Source: Methylophilus sp. (GTDB lineage Bacteria; Pseudomonadota; Gammaproteobacteria; Burkholderiales; Methylophilaceae). From it: DNA of 64,000 nt. Both the position numbers and the translations under genes were made by a program. Position 1 is the stretch's first letter, and each line of letters starts with the position of its first letter. The stretch lies in assembly GCF_008015755.1 (NCBI RefSeq), contig NZ_SSGF01000017.1, positions 1 to 64,000 on the forward strand. Direction: 5' to 3'. Of this stretch, positions 46,339 to 55,796 are shown one piece after another. The notes under the pieces were generated by a model. It was not told where the DNA came from, made no database searches, and was given only the letters and a program-made list of their open reading frames with translations.

Positions 46339-46499
46339 CTGACAAAACATCAAGATCGCACCCTTGAGATTTGAATTGTCTACTCTCCTGTATCGGCTGT
46401 CAAGGTCGACGTCTCGCTTTGTCCATTACCAGAATTTAACCATTCAATTATTTAGCCTGCCTTACTATGCTTGCAGGCGGTTTTTACAGGAGTTTATTC

Positions 46500-48056
46500 A
46501 TGGCAATACCTATATTCAAACGTAGAGAAATCGTGCGTTTATTATGCGCGGGTGGAGATTTGTCTAACCGCCAGATCGCTAATTTGGTTGGCGTTGCATC
46601 GGGCTCTATCAATAAGATCGCATCACAGTTACCAACACTGGGTGTAACTTGGGAGCAACTTAAAGCATTTGGAGATGATGCATTTCTTGCAGCTTTTATC
46701 AAAAAGCCAGAACTTGCAGCATCCAATCGTTCGCATCCAGATTGCCTGCTTTGGCATAGAGAAATGGAGCGTGACAAAGATGTGACTCTACGTTTACTCT
46801 GGGAGGAGTGGCATATAGAGCATATAGATGGCGTTTCATACACACAAGCAACACGCATATATAAAAATTGGTTAAAGAAGCAGCGTGTAAGTATGCGCAA
46901 GATTCATCATCCTGGCGAAACCATATTTGTTGATTTTGCTGGGCGCAGGCTGCCAATCTATAACCGTGACGATAATAGTGTACGGTATGCCCAGGTATTC
47001 GTGGCGACATTGGGCGCATCAAGTTATTCATTTTGCATTGCTGTTTGGTCGCAGGCGATACCGGACTGGATATTCTGTAATGTCAAGATGCTAGAATATT
47101 TCGGTGGTGTTCCACGTATCATTACTCCAGACAATCTCAAGTCTGCAGTGTCGAAAGTCACTCGAAATGGTCCGCATATTAATCCAACTTATGCAGAGTT
47201 TGCAGAGTATTACGACACTGCCATCGTGCCAGCACGGGTACGCAAGCCAAATGACAAAGGTTTAGTTGAAGTAGCTGTGCTCATAATCCAACGCTGGATT
47301 CTTGCAGCATTGCGTCACCGCCAGTTCTATTCTCTGGAAGAAGCGAATGCGGAAATTCTGCATCTATTGGATATTTTTAATAGCAAAGAAATGAAAGCCT
47401 ACAAGGCGTCACGCCGCCAACGTTATGAGATGCTGGATCAATTAGCTTTAAAACCCCTACCAGATCAGGCCTACGAATATGCCGCTTGGCGGCTCAAGGT
47501 GCGTGTTGGAGACAATTACCATGTACAGCATGAAGGGCACTATTACTCGCTGCCCTATGCTATAGCGCATGCATTCGTCGATATCCGTACAGGGCCTAAA
47601 ACTATCGAGATAATACACAATGGTATGCGGGTAGCTACGCACATTTTATCCAATATTATAGGTGGATATACAACTAACCCAGCGCATCTGTCACCAAACC
47701 ACTTGCAGTATGCCGAGGGCAGCCCCGATCAATTGTTGCAATGGGCAATGGCTGTCGGTGCGGCCACAGAAAAAGTATTCCAGCATCATTTGCTGGAGAA
47801 TCGTCATTTAGCAAATGGGATCCGGGCTGCGTGTGCAATCCAGAAGCTGGGACGGCAATATGGAGCGCACCGGCTGGAAGAAGTCTGTGAGTACGCGGTG
47901 AGTATCCATTCTATGACTCATACCAGCATTCTTTCAATATTTCGTAGTAAGGCAGATAAACGACCTAGACCGGATGCAGAAGCCGAACCTTTGGTAAGTC
48001 ACGCCAATGTGCGTGGCAGTAAATACTACAAACAAATAACTGGAGAAGAAGAATGA
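46500..48056 (+). CDS. istA: IS21-family transposase IstA
   Basis: A DDE-type transposase of 518 residues. The start ATG at 46500 has ACAGGAG upstream. It has an N-terminal HTH (LLCAGGDLSNRQIANLVGVASGSINK) and a second DNA-binding part, then the catalytic core with FVDFAGRRLPIY (first Asp), ITPDNLKSAV (second Asp) and KPNDKGLVEVAVLIIQRW (Glu). The C-terminal domain contains EGHYYSLPYAIAHAFVDIR. No frameshift or internal stop is present, so the protein could be active. Its stop overlaps the istB start (ATGA). Confidence 0.93.
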   Translation: MAIPIFKRREIVRLLCAGGDLSNRQIANLVGVASGSINKIASQLPTLGVTWEQLKAFGDDAFLAAFIKKPELAASNRSHPDCLLWHREMERDKDVTLRLLWEEWHIEHIDGVSYTQATRIYKNWLKKQRVSMRKIHHPGETIFVDFAGRRLPIYNRDDNSVRYAQVFVATLGASSYSFCIAVWSQAIPDWIFCNVKMLEYFGGVPRIITPDNLKSAVSKVTRNGPHINPTYAEFAEYYDTAIVPARVRKPNDKGLVEVAVLIIQRWILAALRHRQFYSLEEANAEILHLLDIFNSKEMKAYKASRRQRYEMLDQLALKPLPDQAYEYAAWRLKVRVGDNYHVQHEGHYYSLPYAIAHAFVDIRTGPKTIEIIHNGMRVATHILSNIIGGYTTNPAHLSPNHLQYAEGSPDQLLQWAMAVGAATEKVFQHHLLENRHLANGIRAACAIQKLGRQYGAHRLEEVCEYAVSIHSMTHTSILSIFRSKADKRPRPDAEAEPLVSHANVRGSKYYKQITGEEE

Positions 48057-48796
48057 TGATGCAACAAACCATCTCTAAACTGAGAGAGCTAAAACTCCTT
48101 GGCATGGCCGATGCTCTGCAGGCTAATGTTGGACAACCAGCATTTCGTGGCCTGTCATTTGAAGAGCAGTTTGGTATTCTGGTTGACAGTGAAGTGTCAT
48201 CGCGTGATAGTCGCCGTCTCAACCGTCTGCTCAAAATGGCCAGACTACGCTACCCCTCAGCTTGTCTGGAGGATGTGGATTTCAGGCAGTCTCGTGGCCT
48301 GGAAAAACCGTTATTTGCTTTACTGGCGGTTTGCGACTGGGTGCGTCAACCAAAGCATATCGTTTTTACTGGGGCGACTGGAACAGGTAAGAGCTGGGTG
48401 GCCTGTGCACTTGGAGTTCAAGCATGTCGCCTTGGATTGTCTGTTATTTATAGATCTTCCAGCCAGATCGCTGAAGAAATCTCAACTGCAGCTGCAGATG
48501 GTTCGTTACCGCAATTAAAAGGTAGGCTGATCAAAGCTGCAGTACTAATTATTGATGATTTGGGACTGATGCCATTTGATTCTTTGGTGGCTAGAACCTT
48601 GCTGGATGTTGTCGATGAGCGTGATCGATTGCGTGTTGGTGCACTGGTTCTTACTAGCCAGTATCCCATTGATCACTGGCATGCATTTCTGGGGGATCCT
48701 ACGATTGCCGATGCCATTCTGGATCGCATGGTGCATGCTGCTTATTATATCGATTTGAAGGGAGGCTCCTTACGTAAAGGTAGGTCAAAAGAATAA
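48053..48796 (+). CDS. istB: IS21-family helper ATPase IstB
   Basis: An AAA+ ATPase of 247 residues related to DnaC, which assists IstA and selects target DNA. It has Walker A GATGTGKSWVACALG, Walker B AAVLIIDDLGL and the conserved Arg-containing HTH-like ends (LDRMVHAAYYIDLKGGSLRK). Intact. Overlap with istA by four bases points to translational coupling. After it come a hairpin (TGGTAGTGG/CCACTACCA, 48805-48841) and the TGCAA array of the right end. Confidence 0.93.
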   Translation: MMMQQTISKLRELKLLGMADALQANVGQPAFRGLSFEEQFGILVDSEVSSRDSRRLNRLLKMARLRYPSACLEDVDFRQSRGLEKPLFALLAVCDWVRQPKHIVFTGATGTGKSWVACALGVQACRLGLSVIYRSSSQIAEEISTAAADGSLPQLKGRLIKAAVLIIDDLGLMPFDSLVARTLLDVVDERDRLRVGALVLTSQYPIDHWHAFLGDPTIADAILDRMVHAAYYIDLKGGSLRKGRSKE

Positions 48797-49357: not shown

Positions 49358-49551
49358 TTTTTCTTGGATAATGTAAAACGCACACCCTGATTTGGAAGCC
49401 CTATAAAGAGGCGAATATCTTCTCGAAAACCATGTACTATTCGTGGGCATCAATTATTGATGGAACAACGACACCTCGGTTATGTACTGTTTATGGTCGA
49501 TTGTTTATAATCAACTGGGCATTGTGTATCAAAGAATTTTTTGGAAGCCGT

Positions 49552-50277
49552 ATGTTTAATTTATCTAGCTCGCCTTTCAGGAAAGAAAAAGCCTTCGACA
49601 TTAAAATCGATGTTGAACAGCCAATTTCATTTTCATCTGAAAGTGAGTTAGTCCAAACTTTCACCACAAACTCACATAAAAATATATTTAACCACTTGGA
49701 GTGGACTAGTGAGTTAAATGCTGGAAATGGCATTGCAGATATTGTTTTGTACAATACAAGAAAAGATTGGAAAAATAACTCTTCGCTTGCACTGATCCGG
49801 CCACAAATGGCTAATTCATTGGTGGCTTTACCCTACAGAAAAGCATTTGATGTTGAGTATTTTTCCTCTCTTGCATGTATATCAAAAAGTACATCAGAGA
49901 GAGTGTTAAAAGAATTTTCCTTGGCAGGCTATTGTGACAAGTCAGCATCTGGCTGGATAAAGTTGAAGCAACCAAGGCCCCCTATAGCTAATATTTATGC
50001 GATTGAAGCAAAGCTTAAAGATTGGAGGCGGGCTTTATTGCAAGCAACAAGCTATCAAGAGTTTGCTAACCAATCATGGGTTCTGATGGATAGTAAGTTT
50101 TGCAAAAAAGCGATGGAAAATAAGCTTGAGTTTACAAAGCGTAATGTTGGTTTGATTTCTATTTCGCCTGATGGGAAATTAAATCCCTTGATCGGATGCA
50201 GCACGATAATACCAAAATCTCAATATCGTTTTTGGTATGCGAACGTCCTACTTTTGGCCTCTACACTCAAGCTATAA
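49552..50277 (+). CDS. PD-(D/E)XK nuclease-like protein, hypothetical
   Basis: From the ATG at 49552 (TTGGAAG upstream) it has 241 residues; the track's earlier start lacks a ribosome site. The core contains GIADIVLYN and IYAIEAKLKDWRRALLQATSYQEFANQSWVL, the arrangement of a PD-(D/E)XK fold (Asp, then E-A-K), as seen in nuclease-like uncharacterised proteins with the EAKL-DWR-AL-QA motif. A short HTH-like segment (SKSTSERVLKEFSLAGYCDKS) lies between. Whether it cuts DNA is unknown. Its end overlaps the convergent 393-residue gene by 11 bases. It follows the umuC remnant. Confidence 0.55.
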   Translation: MFNLSSSPFRKEKAFDIKIDVEQPISFSSESELVQTFTTNSHKNIFNHLEWTSELNAGNGIADIVLYNTRKDWKNNSSLALIRPQMANSLVALPYRKAFDVEYFSSLACISKSTSERVLKEFSLAGYCDKSASGWIKLKQPRPPIANIYAIEAKLKDWRRALLQATSYQEFANQSWVLMDSKFCKKAMENKLEFTKRNVGLISISPDGKLNPLIGCSTIIPKSQYRFWYANVLLLASTLKL

Positions 50278-51448
50278 ACTCTCTGTAGAACCAGTTGATG
50301 GCATCAAGCCAAGGCTTAATATGATCGCCGTTTCCATGTCTCTCCAAATCTAGAGGCCAGTCTTTTATTTGTTGATAGAAGCTTCCAGCTTGATTTAGCC
50401 TCTCTCGAAGGAATCGATATCGTTCTGAGATCGTCAACTCTGAGAGTTGATCAACTTGAGATTGATAAGAAATAAAGAAGTGTTTATACAATCCAGGGTA
50501 GTTGAATGAAGGCTCAGCAGCAGCGTCAAGGGCTTGATTCCCGTAAGGCGTCTCCCAATACACTTCGCTCCATATCTCTGGTAAGCCTGCACGAATTTGT
50601 TGTGCATCAGAATATAAAATCCAATTATAAAGACCTGGAAGATATAACCTTGCCCTCGGCCCACGTCTTTCCTCGTCTACAACCACAAACTTGTCGATTG
50701 AGAACATTCTAGTATTCTCGTAGGCACCAAAAGTTAATTCAGTGCCATCTATTAAGCTAAATAGGAGACCTTCTGTATTTGCGTGGCCAATAGTAACTTT
50801 CAAACCAACATCAGCCAACTCTTTCACCATGCATAAATAGGCTTTGAGCAGCTCAAAGTCTTGTATTTGTTTGGTTTTGCTTTGTGCGTCCATTAAAATG
50901 TAGACGCCATTGATTCTGGGGTATTTAGTGACCCAATTTAGTATATTTGTTCTGTAACCCTCATGTTTAATCATCCCCTGAGTAAGGGGGAGCGTTAAGA
51001 ACACATCACCATCGTACCCTGATTCTTCAATTGCCTGAAGAAACGGGTGAACTGTATAAATATCTTGTTTTTCACAGTAATCTGGAACCATATCTGCAAA
51101 GTACCTTGCAGGAATAATTACTCTATTAAACTGTTGGTTTACTTGAAATTGAACGCATTGTCGGGCTGCTTCCAAAGCAAGCATAGTAAAGTCAACGGTT
51201 GAGAATCCTTTGGAGATGGTTTCAGGAAAGAAATCATACGTTTTAAGTTTTACCTTTTGAGAGCTTGGCAAGTAGAACTGAGGATCAAAAAAAGACTGCT
51301 GTCTTAGCTCCAGGTCCATGCTTTCAACTGCATCCTTTGCTTGATGGATTGGGCTTAAAATCAGTCCATTACCGCAGAGATCTCTCTGTAGAGAGTCTTT
51401 GTTCCAAACTGTGTTGTGACCGCACTGATGAAATAGATTTATTTTCAT
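50267..51448 (-). CDS. Unknown protein paired with a Ser/Thr kinase
   Basis: From the ATG at 51448 (GGAGATAAAAAC upstream, inside the kinase's last codons) it has 393 residues. I do not recognise a named family. Conserved-looking stretches are FHQCGHNTVWN, GNGLILSPIHQAKD, FDPQFYLPSSQKVKLKTYDFFPET, VIIPARYFADMVPD, DVFLTLPLTQGMI, LNWVTKYPRINGVYILMD, TIGHANTEGLLFSLIDG, LTFGAYENTRMFSIDKFVV and RRGPRARLYLPGLYNWI. The alternation of strands and helices suggests a TIM-barrel, faintly like tRNA-guanine transglycosylase-type proteins, but no Zn-binding Cys triad is seen. It starts five bases after the kinase stop, so the two proteins are made together. Confidence 0.6.
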   Translation of the reverse strand: MKINLFHQCGHNTVWNKDSLQRDLCGNGLILSPIHQAKDAVESMDLELRQQSFFDPQFYLPSSQKVKLKTYDFFPETISKGFSTVDFTMLALEAARQCVQFQVNQQFNRVIIPARYFADMVPDYCEKQDIYTVHPFLQAIEESGYDGDVFLTLPLTQGMIKHEGYRTNILNWVTKYPRINGVYILMDAQSKTKQIQDFELLKAYLCMVKELADVGLKVTIGHANTEGLLFSLIDGTELTFGAYENTRMFSIDKFVVVDEERRGPRARLYLPGLYNWILYSDAQQIRAGLPEIWSEVYWETPYGNQALDAAAEPSFNYPGLYKHFFISYQSQVDQLSELTISERYRFLRERLNQAGSFYQQIKDWPLDLERHGNGDHIKPWLDAINWFYREFIA

Positions 51449-51453
51449 TGTTT

Positions 51454-52365
51454 TTATCTCCGAGGGCATGCTTCTAATGCAGCGGTAAGATCTACTATTC
51501 TGCGAAACCTTTTGTACGGTTCTTTTTCCATTATCTTTTGTATGATGTTTGAAAACTCAGCTGAACATAATCCTAAGTCATGTAAAGGTTTCGCCTTATT
51601 AGTAACGACATTATGTAGGACTGTATATAAATCAGAAGCTCCGTCATCAAAAGGGTTGAAACCAGCCAGTAATTCATAGCATAAAGTGCCTAATGAGAAA
51701 AAATCGCTTTTGAATGATATATTCAATTTGTCATTTCGTGCTTGCTCTGGGCTAGCATACTTGGGAGTGCAGGGGCCAAAGTCTCCAATGGTTAATGTAA
51801 CTCCAGCTACTCCCTCCACCCTTACGATGCCCAAGTCGATGATCACAACTTCTCCATCAGGTCGAATCAATATGTTTTGAGGCTTAATGTCGCGATGTAT
51901 TAGTGGAGGTTTAGACTCCCAAAGTGGTTGCAGTGCAATTACCAACTTTTTGATAAGATCTAAAACAGCTGATTCGGAGATGTAATTACCTCTGAGTTGG
52001 TCTAGTGGTTCAGCTTGTACTCGCTCTTCAATTGTTATAAAGAGTTTGGACGATAGCGGTTCTTCGGTAGCAGGGTCTTGAACGAACGTTTCAGAATAAA
52101 TCAGTCTGGGATAGTGAGGAGTTGCGAGTGAGGATAATATTTGAATTTCTCGCTGAATGTAGCTTACTGTTTGCGGTGAATCTCCGCACGCTACTTTTAA
52201 GACGACTTCTTCCCACTGTGTATGATCAGGTATCCAATCAGCATTTTCAGGATTGCAAAAATATACTACTCTTTGACCTGAAGGAGATGCAACTGCTTGG
52301 ATAGTTAGTCCCGGAAGTAAACGAGCCAATAAATCCCTCAGATCAGGAGTATCAAATAGTTTCAT
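51454..52365 (-). CDS. Serine/threonine protein kinase
   Basis: A Hanks-type kinase of 303 residues consisting of the kinase domain alone, without membrane helix or PASTA domains. Key residues are complete: Lys57 in VVLKVA, Glu73 in QREIQIL, the catalytic loop HRDIKPQN (Asp159, Asn164), Asp177 in IDLG (DLG in place of DFG), and the SPEQAR activation-segment end. The Gly-rich loop (SPSGQRVVYF) is poorly conserved. It should be an active cytoplasmic kinase. The 393-residue gene follows in the same operon and may be its substrate or effector (inference). Confidence 0.85.
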   Translation of the reverse strand: MKLFDTPDLRDLLARLLPGLTIQAVASPSGQRVVYFCNPENADWIPDHTQWEEVVLKVACGDSPQTVSYIQREIQILSSLATPHYPRLIYSETFVQDPATEEPLSSKLFITIEERVQAEPLDQLRGNYISESAVLDLIKKLVIALQPLWESKPPLIHRDIKPQNILIRPDGEVVIIDLGIVRVEGVAGVTLTIGDFGPCTPKYASPEQARNDKLNISFKSDFFSLGTLCYELLAGFNPFDDGASDLYTVLHNVVTNKAKPLHDLGLCSAEFSNIIQKIMEKEPYKRFRRIVDLTAALEACPRR

Positions 52366-53600: not shown

Positions 53601-53900
53601 ATGGAACTTAAAGGAGCGTTAGGTGAGGTATTCGCTCAAGCGCGAAAATCAGTAAAGCTGACACAGGAAGATTTCGAGACAATTTCCCCTAGAAGCTACA
53701 TTAGCCATCTGGAGCGCGGCCTCAGCTCCCCAACCATTGATAAATTGGATCAGTTGGCAGGGTTGATGGGTGTTCATGCTGTTTCATTGTTATTCCAAGC
53801 CTACCTTATACATGATAAAAGTCTTGATGCCTTGCAGCTAATGACCAAGATATTGGAGGACTCAAAAACCATAAATGAGTCTCAGGTTAAATTAACCTAA
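53601..53900 (+). CDS. XRE-family transcriptional regulator
   Basis: A 99-residue regulator with an HTH at about 20-70 (KLTQEDFETISPRSYISHLERGLSSPTIDKLDQLAGLMGVHAVSLL) and a helical tail. It resembles the XRE protein at 41.0 kb over the same region. The perfect palindrome 40 bases upstream is the obvious binding site, making it autoregulated and controlling the divergent small genes. The 221-residue gene follows 46 bases downstream and may be cotranscribed. Confidence 0.75.
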   Translation: MELKGALGEVFAQARKSVKLTQEDFETISPRSYISHLERGLSSPTIDKLDQLAGLMGVHAVSLLFQAYLIHDKSLDALQLMTKILEDSKTINESQVKLT

Positions 53901-54767: not shown

Positions 54768-55796
54768 GTGCCATTATTAGATGCAGAAAAATTAAAGGAA
54801 AATGCGCTGACTTCCATTCGATTAGGAATTGAGGACTTTCAGCGCAGTCAGATTCCATTTGATCAAGGGGGTGATCCTGAACGAGCCCTTTCAGCTATTC
54901 GGAATTTATTTGCAGGAGTATTACTACTCTTTAAATATAAAATTGCTACATCCGTAGATGATCCTGAACATGCAGCTACTTTGATATTTAATCCCCCTGA
55001 AGTATTACCTCAAGCGGATGGTCACGGCGGAGTTGAGTGGCAACCTGTAGGAAACTTCAAAAAAACGACTATCGATGTTACAACGATAAAAAAGCGCTTC
55101 GATGGTTTCGGCATTGAAATGGATTGGGAAACTATCGATAAGCTCCAAGAGTGCCGCAATCATTTGGAACATTTGCATCCGGCTAATACACTCGGTGAAG
55201 TCGCAGACTTTGTCGCTGAGCTGTTCCCGATATTACGTGATTTTGTACATTCTGAGATGAACGAACAACCTGCGGACCTATTGGGTGGGGCTTGGCCGAT
55301 AATGCTCAAACATCACACATTTTTTATTGACACAATTAAAGAGTGTGCAGAAGCCTGGACTGAAGCCGCCGTGCCAAAGCTAATCCAACCTTGGTTGGAA
55401 AAATGCCAATGCGAGGCTTGTGGCTCATCTCTTATACGTCCAGATAGTGATGACCTTGACGATGGGTTGCAAGTAGATGAGGACGATATAACATTCAGGT
55501 ATGAATGTGTAGCTTGTGGATACAGAGACCTCATTGCACCTTTGATTATCAAAAGTCTAAGTAATGACTTTGATTATGATCCACGTGATGGTGGTGAGCC
55601 TAGTGTAGAGCGCTGCGATGAATGTCAGCGTGACACGTTCGTCATTCATGAGCAACAGTGCTTATGGTGTGAAGTGGAGCTCGATTACAAAGAGTGTAAC
55701 GTTTGTGAAGAACCGTTGCGCCAGGATGATCAGGCAAACGGAGGACTTTGTGGATACCACCACCACGTATATGAAAAGGTTATGCGAGAAGATTGA
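54768..55796 (+). CDS. HEPN-like domain plus zinc-ribbon protein
   Basis: A 342-residue protein starting at GTG (54768) behind GAAGAG. The N-terminal 170 residues are helical (ERALSAIRNLFAGVLLLFKYKIA) and end in a possible HEPN ribonuclease motif, R130-N-H-L-E-H135 (an R-x4-H pattern). The C-terminal half has zinc-ribbon Cys pairs: CQCEACGS with CVACGY, and CDECQRD with CLWCEVE and CNVCEEP, plus a His-rich end (GYHHHVYEKV). Such an arrangement fits an RNA-targeting protein. The domain call is by eye. Confidence 0.55.
   Translation: MPLLDAEKLKENALTSIRLGIEDFQRSQIPFDQGGDPERALSAIRNLFAGVLLLFKYKIATSVDDPEHAATLIFNPPEVLPQADGHGGVEWQPVGNFKKTTIDVTTIKKRFDGFGIEMDWETIDKLQECRNHLEHLHPANTLGEVADFVAELFPILRDFVHSEMNEQPADLLGGAWPIMLKHHTFFIDTIKECAEAWTEAAVPKLIQPWLEKCQCEACGSSLIRPDSDDLDDGLQVDEDDITFRYECVACGYRDLIAPLIIKSLSNDFDYDPRDGGEPSVERCDECQRDTFVIHEQQCLWCEVELDYKECNVCEEPLRQDDQANGGLCGYHHHVYEKVMRED

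Follow-up and report, generated by a model that had tools for sequence, protein, structure and literature searches.

Kinases are frequent in prokaryotic defence, where their switches and substrates are mostly open questions, and they also serve many roles outside defence. Among the systems with a Hanks-type Ser/Thr kinase, PD-T4-6 is a single-gene system and MADS comprises about eight genes. A further point of comparison is given by the Dpd and BREX-related capture (BRC) systems, in which TGT homologues lie in conflict operons together with nucleases (PMC12839542). The BRC systems contain HerA/FtsK, GNAT and PglZ, and the Dpd systems contain DpdB/C and others; a kinase is not reported among the defining components (PMC12839542).

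Here we describe a trio of genes in the window, by which we mean the whole 64,000-nucleotide stretch of Methylophilus DNA that was analysed. It comprises a Hanks-type kinase, a protein with a predicted TIM barrel (the partner) and a protein resembling PD-(D/E)XK nucleases. The window kinase is of the Hanks type and is carried in a mobile defence setting, as are PD-T4-6 and the MADS kinase MAD6. A pairing with this barrel or with this nuclease family is, to our knowledge, known for neither PD-T4-6 nor MADS.

Gene content and co-occurrence of the trio

The features of the window are collected in Table 1. The stop codon of the kinase gene is separated from the ATG of the partner gene by a gap of five bases; an alternative in-frame ATG upstream, at 51469, would give a partner of 400 aa. 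The open reading frame of the nuclease-like protein opens at 49432, with the tabulated start being the likely one by homology (residue numbers of this protein below count from 49432), and the gene is convergent with that of the partner, the two overlapping by 11 bases. The two small genes upstream of the kinase were considered as extra members of the module and rejected, as none was seen in the other loci.

Table 1. Features of the window in and around the three-gene module
Feature	Position	Strand	Remarks
IS21-type istA/istB pair	46467-48796	plus	Next to the island, on its left
PD-(D/E)XK nuclease-like protein with inserted winged helix-turn-helix (wHTH)	49552..50277	plus	About 241 aa
Partner, predicted TIM-barrel protein of an unregistered family	50267..51448	minus	393 aa; complete ORF, ATG 51448, stop 50267
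GGAGA, Shine-Dalgarno-like site of partner gene	51457..51461	minus	Within the end of the kinase gene; read directly from the sequence
Hanks-type Ser/Thr protein kinase, cytoplasmic	51454..52365	minus	303 aa; complete ORF
Two small genes, 150 and 162 aa	52539-53488	minus	Upstream of kinase; no family match
XRE regulator	53601-53900	plus	HTH_3, E 3e-9
HEPN-like protein, 221 aa	53947-54612	plus	Behind XRE regulator; no family match
PDC-S64 homologue (PADLOC candidate defence family)	54768-55796	plus	Full-length match, E 2e-37; same low-GC island

Homologues of the partner, with identities of 13-53%, were found in Pseudomonadota, Actinomycetota, Bacillota, a haloarchaeon and viral contigs. A tblastn-type search gave a partner of equal length and 53% identity in a Methylococcaceae MAG (L002), and one of 22% identity in the haloarchaeon Natribaculum breve, on a plasmid (L003); next to both partners lie a kinase and a gene homologous to the convergent one of the window. 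The convergent gene (49432-50277) was then used as an independent bait against plasmids. This search brought up plasmids of Arthrobacter, Kineococcus, Priestia and Polaromonas on which the gene is again next to a kinase and to a protein labelled 'hypothetical', and alignment identified these hypothetical proteins as divergent partners. The Priestia kinase and partner are fused into one protein of 677 aa. Nine further partner loci came from viral contigs and genomes; no relatives of the Priestia partner were found in the viral contigs.

When all open reading frames were searched with profiles, every locus whose partner is intact (16 loci) proved to have a kinase and the nuclease-like gene adjacent, the kinase frame of one (L010) lacking its 5' part. 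A reading made from the sequence alone had proposed a two-gene module of kinase and partner and had named homologues occurring mostly without the kinase as evidence against it. No intact partner lacking a kinase was found, and the pairing is conserved; the unit, however, has three genes, since the PD-(D/E)XK-like gene, treated in that reading as mere context, is no less strict than the kinase in its co-occurrence. Two layouts are seen: either kinase and partner are followed by a convergent, overlapping nuclease gene, as in the window, or nuclease, kinase and partner genes stand in a row (L003, L008, L013, L020, L026 and L027). One further locus (L016:4890-6246) holds an apparent remnant of a module, with the C-terminal part of a partner containing CTCPYC, a split nuclease gene and no kinase.

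The partner profile matched 4 of the 399 genomes of the host's order, namely the host, G506, G585 and G730. In a separate run against 399 genomes of the order, the nuclease profile found the core of that protein (E <1e-19) in the same four, on the same contigs and at neighbouring coordinates, while its matches in 35 other genomes were to the wHTH segment only. Leaving the host aside, the probability that chance alone would single out the same three of the 398 genomes is about 1e-7. A class-wide sample of 369 genomes contained no additional module; the module is rare and scattered. Across 15 loci, the pairwise identities of the three proteins correlate with one another (r of 0.92, 0.84 and 0.78; permutation p of 0.0002 each), which indicates that they have been inherited together. 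The kinase, the partner and the nuclease-like gene very probably form one functional unit.

Properties of the three proteins

The kinase matches Pkinase (PF00069, E 7.2e-25) in Pfam and contains the elements expected of a Hanks-type kinase, that is, the Lys, the Glu, HRDxKxxN (HRDxKPxN in the window) and DxG (usually DFG). K57, E73, HRD157-159, K161, N164, D177 and G179 are invariant in all the loci that cover that kinase region. The closest PADLOC models are PD-T4-6 and MAD6 of MADS (E 2e-32 and 4e-32, respectively). The NCBIfam cut-off for MAD6 lies far above the score of the kinase (66 of 460 bits), and the PglW model gave 36 of 990 bits. The complete Hanks-type kinase followed after five bases by its partner, as described in the sequence-only reading, is borne out by the reading frames, the Pkinase match and the catalytic residues.

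That reading could not assign the 393-residue partner, saw in its patterned segments a hint of a real conserved enzyme, perhaps a TIM barrel, and pointed to a match with a housekeeping family as grounds for abandoning the proposal. No such match was found. None of the 16 members gave a family match in Pfam, NCBIfam, PHROG or PADLOC, alignments of the partner had no match among PDB profiles, and the partner defines a protein family missing from Pfam, NCBIfam, PHROGs and PADLOC. Judging from the equal-length homologue with 53% identity and the 14 more intact homologues that could be aligned, it is a real gene. An AlphaFold2 model built from seven sequences (pLDDT 84, pTM 0.85) confidently predicts a TIM barrel, (b/a)8, with a helical C-terminal part, in agreement with the earlier suggestion. 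In a Foldseek comparison of this model with the PDB, the best overlap was with the TGT 6rkt (E 7e-4, TM 0.52/0.55); xylanases and deaminases scored far lower, mostly <0.4 by query length. Several TGTs were also near the top when viral structure models were compared.

Five residues of the partner are invariant in the 16-member alignment: D55, P56, P113, Y183 and G241. D55 lies in the FDPQ motif, at the end of strand 3 and at the barrel mouth, and by hand alignment its counterpart in TGT would be the Asp in the motif DSGGFQ. At columns 239-240 (the end of strand 8, where the TGT nucleophile is placed) the members have T, A, S, G, F, V, I or N, and an Asp at that position, as located by hand alignment rather than superposition, is present in 0 of 16; the nucleophile therefore seems, from these sequences, to have been lost. 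The Priestia, Kineococcus and Arthrobacter partners and the L016 remnant (L004, L005, L006 and L016) contain CxCxxC followed about 18 residues on by His, an arrangement which is reminiscent of the TGT zinc site and is missing from the window partner and most other members.

No partner member matched TGT (PF01702) or DpdA in Pfam, PADLOC or NCBIfam, and one member gave a weak match to the ArcS model (E 0.019-0.04). When the partner was compared, profile to profile, with a set of 20 bacterial Tgt proteins, there was no match; this set was narrow (Neff 2.3), and a remote homology may have escaped it. Collecting divergent phage TGTs yielded Tgt-like sequences only. The housekeeping Tgt of the host is encoded by a separate gene. 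The partner is at most a TGT-like barrel that would bind without that nucleophile, and membership of the TGT family is not established.

In the nuclease-like protein, E70, E94, D103, E192-x-K194, W198 and Q204 do not vary among the 16 members. Its AlphaFold2 model (pLDDT 85.8) has the predicted topology a-b-b-[wHTH]-b-a-b, and E70, D103, E192, K194 and Q204 fall on the elements expected for the PD-(D/E)XK motif. The PD-(D/E)XK core runs a-b-b-b-a-b and carries D…ExK, accompanied in many families by an N-terminal Glu and by a Gln in the next helix. Motif and modelled topology together point to this arrangement, the D and the ExK being separated here by an inserted wHTH, which matches wHTH regulators from archaea and bacteria (2d1h, E 1.2e-5). 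Foldseek matched only the wHTH of the model and no PD-(D/E)XK structure; PDB profile matches were likewise confined to the wHTH, and the profile of the members without a wHTH gave none. The L008 protein had weak matches to NucS (E 0.04-0.18).

Distant relatives of the nuclease, with neither kinase nor partner, were seen on haloarchaeal plasmids and a viral contig (L007:4446-5495, L009:4401-5345 and L015:5860-6390). These loci were left out of the module count, as they hold only a distant nuclease relative. Since these relatives stand alone, the nuclease family is wider than the three-gene module.

Genomic settings of the module

The window module has a GC content of 39.8%, lower than the 53.2% of the chromosomal genes next to it, which indicates that the module was acquired. 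The mobile setting proposed from the sequence is also that of the homologues, which lie in mobile and defence-rich surroundings. Modules occur on plasmids, one of them conjugative. The L011 and L012 modules have XRE/ImmA-type genes on one side and a tyrosine-integrase-like gene on the other, the types of these genes being judged from their sequence, and the settings include prophage cargo slots. The L026 and L027 modules adjoin TnsB, TnsC and TniQ-like genes of Tn7-like elements, TnsB being backed by Pfam and the other two being read from sequence. A type IIG restriction enzyme adjoins the module in L003 and an E1-like gene adjoins that in L010, while the L016 remnant is next to a PDC-S06 ATPase. 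In its carriage by mobile elements and defence islands and its sporadic spread (4 of 399 genomes of the order), the module has the pattern looked for in a defence system.

Two observations concern particular loci. A strong DpdH match (L025:5474-6346, minus strand; PADLOC, E 4e-63) lies within a few hundred bases of one module; it is interesting given the TGT-like partner, and is possibly a coincidence. Phosphatase genes stand directly beside two other modules, PP2C at L013:4990-5733 and a calcineurin-like metallophosphatase at L014:238-996, and these are possible counterparts of the kinase.

A possible route from barrel to nuclease

From this context we infer a defence or conflict role for the trio, which we consider probable. 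On balance, we lean towards reading the three genes as a mobile conflict (defence) module, one that is not described in the sources covered by the search. No description of the trio was found in open papers; subscription papers and preprints were largely outside the scope of the search, and a prior description is possible.

The partner barrel would bind a nucleobase or a nucleic-acid feature of invading DNA or RNA, a type of ligand that we infer. Occupancy of the barrel would switch the Hanks kinase, which is coupled to it in translation or, as in Priestia, fused to it. The kinase would then phosphorylate the PD-(D/E)XK-wHTH protein, or the barrel if this restrains that protein, and phosphorylation would license the nuclease to cut the DNA of the invader (or of the cell). 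With the barrel as sensor, the kinase as switch and the nuclease as effector, this is the most economical account; we offer its exact order, from sensing by the barrel through the kinase to licensing of the nuclease, tentatively. No neighbour is constant enough across the loci for a trigger to be named.

The toxin-antitoxin or abortive infection type of system provides a different, and in our judgement unlikely, account, with the kinase (or the barrel) as a growth inhibitor that the other proteins of the trio hold in check until infection frees it, and the nuclease-like protein as the sensor. Such systems typically take the form of small operons with overlapping genes carried by mobile elements, and the best PADLOC matches of the kinase are to a single-gene defence kinase and to MAD6. 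These kinase models, however, largely reflect general kinase similarity, all three genes are always there and are of enzyme size, and there is no conserved small antitoxin-like gene. A role of the PD-(D/E)XK-wHTH protein chiefly as a kinase-controlled regulator that binds DNA, with the trio as a signalling or stress-response circuit through which mobile elements control themselves, is also rather improbable. The wHTH is the sole part of that protein with a clear sequence match, and the phosphatase genes beside two modules are as in ordinary signalling cassettes. Against this, the short members in L008, L020, L026 and L027, all from loci of the nuclease-kinase-partner layout, are without the wHTH and yet keep E, D, ExK and Q, so that the constant part is the nuclease-type site and not the DNA reader.

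The TGT-like barrel, the CxCxxC and His in four members and the one invariant Asp at the barrel mouth might instead suggest restriction based on base modification or excision. The barrel would in this case be an active TGT-like transglycosylase or glycosylase on DNA with D55 as the catalytic residue, and, as in Dpd, the nuclease would cut where the barrel had acted or where self-marking was missing. We consider both parts of this proposal very unlikely, as the aligned position of the TGT nucleophile is Ala/Ser/Thr/Gly and has no Asp, most members have lost the zinc motif and genes of the preQ0 pathway are not conserved beside the module.

Returning to the defence module that we favour, the trio represents a minimal self-contained set of a trigger candidate, a kinase and a nuclease. 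The kinase substrate is likely to be one of its two neighbours, which makes the substrate question directly testable. The partner family may put the TGT barrel to a new use. We speculate that a TGT-like barrel, catalytically repurposed, recognises a signature in a base or nucleic acid and that a Hanks kinase relays the signal to a dedicated PD-(D/E)XK nuclease; if true, this would be a new class of nucleic-acid immunity common to bacteria and archaea.

Compared with known systems, the trio resembles BREX/Pgl with PglW in having a Ser/Thr kinase in an operon like those of restriction-modification defence. It differs from BREX/Pgl in having neither PglZ nor PglX, and a type IIG enzyme adjoins the module in L003 only. 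The partner is like Tgt (PF01702) in the overlap of fold and in the CxCxxC and His of some members, and unlike it in sequence profile and nucleophile; it likewise has no profile match to DpdA and seems to be without the TGT nucleophile. A TGT-like barrel and a nuclease are common to the trio and to the Dpd and BRC systems, whereas the trio adds a kinase, which is not reported among the defining parts of those systems.
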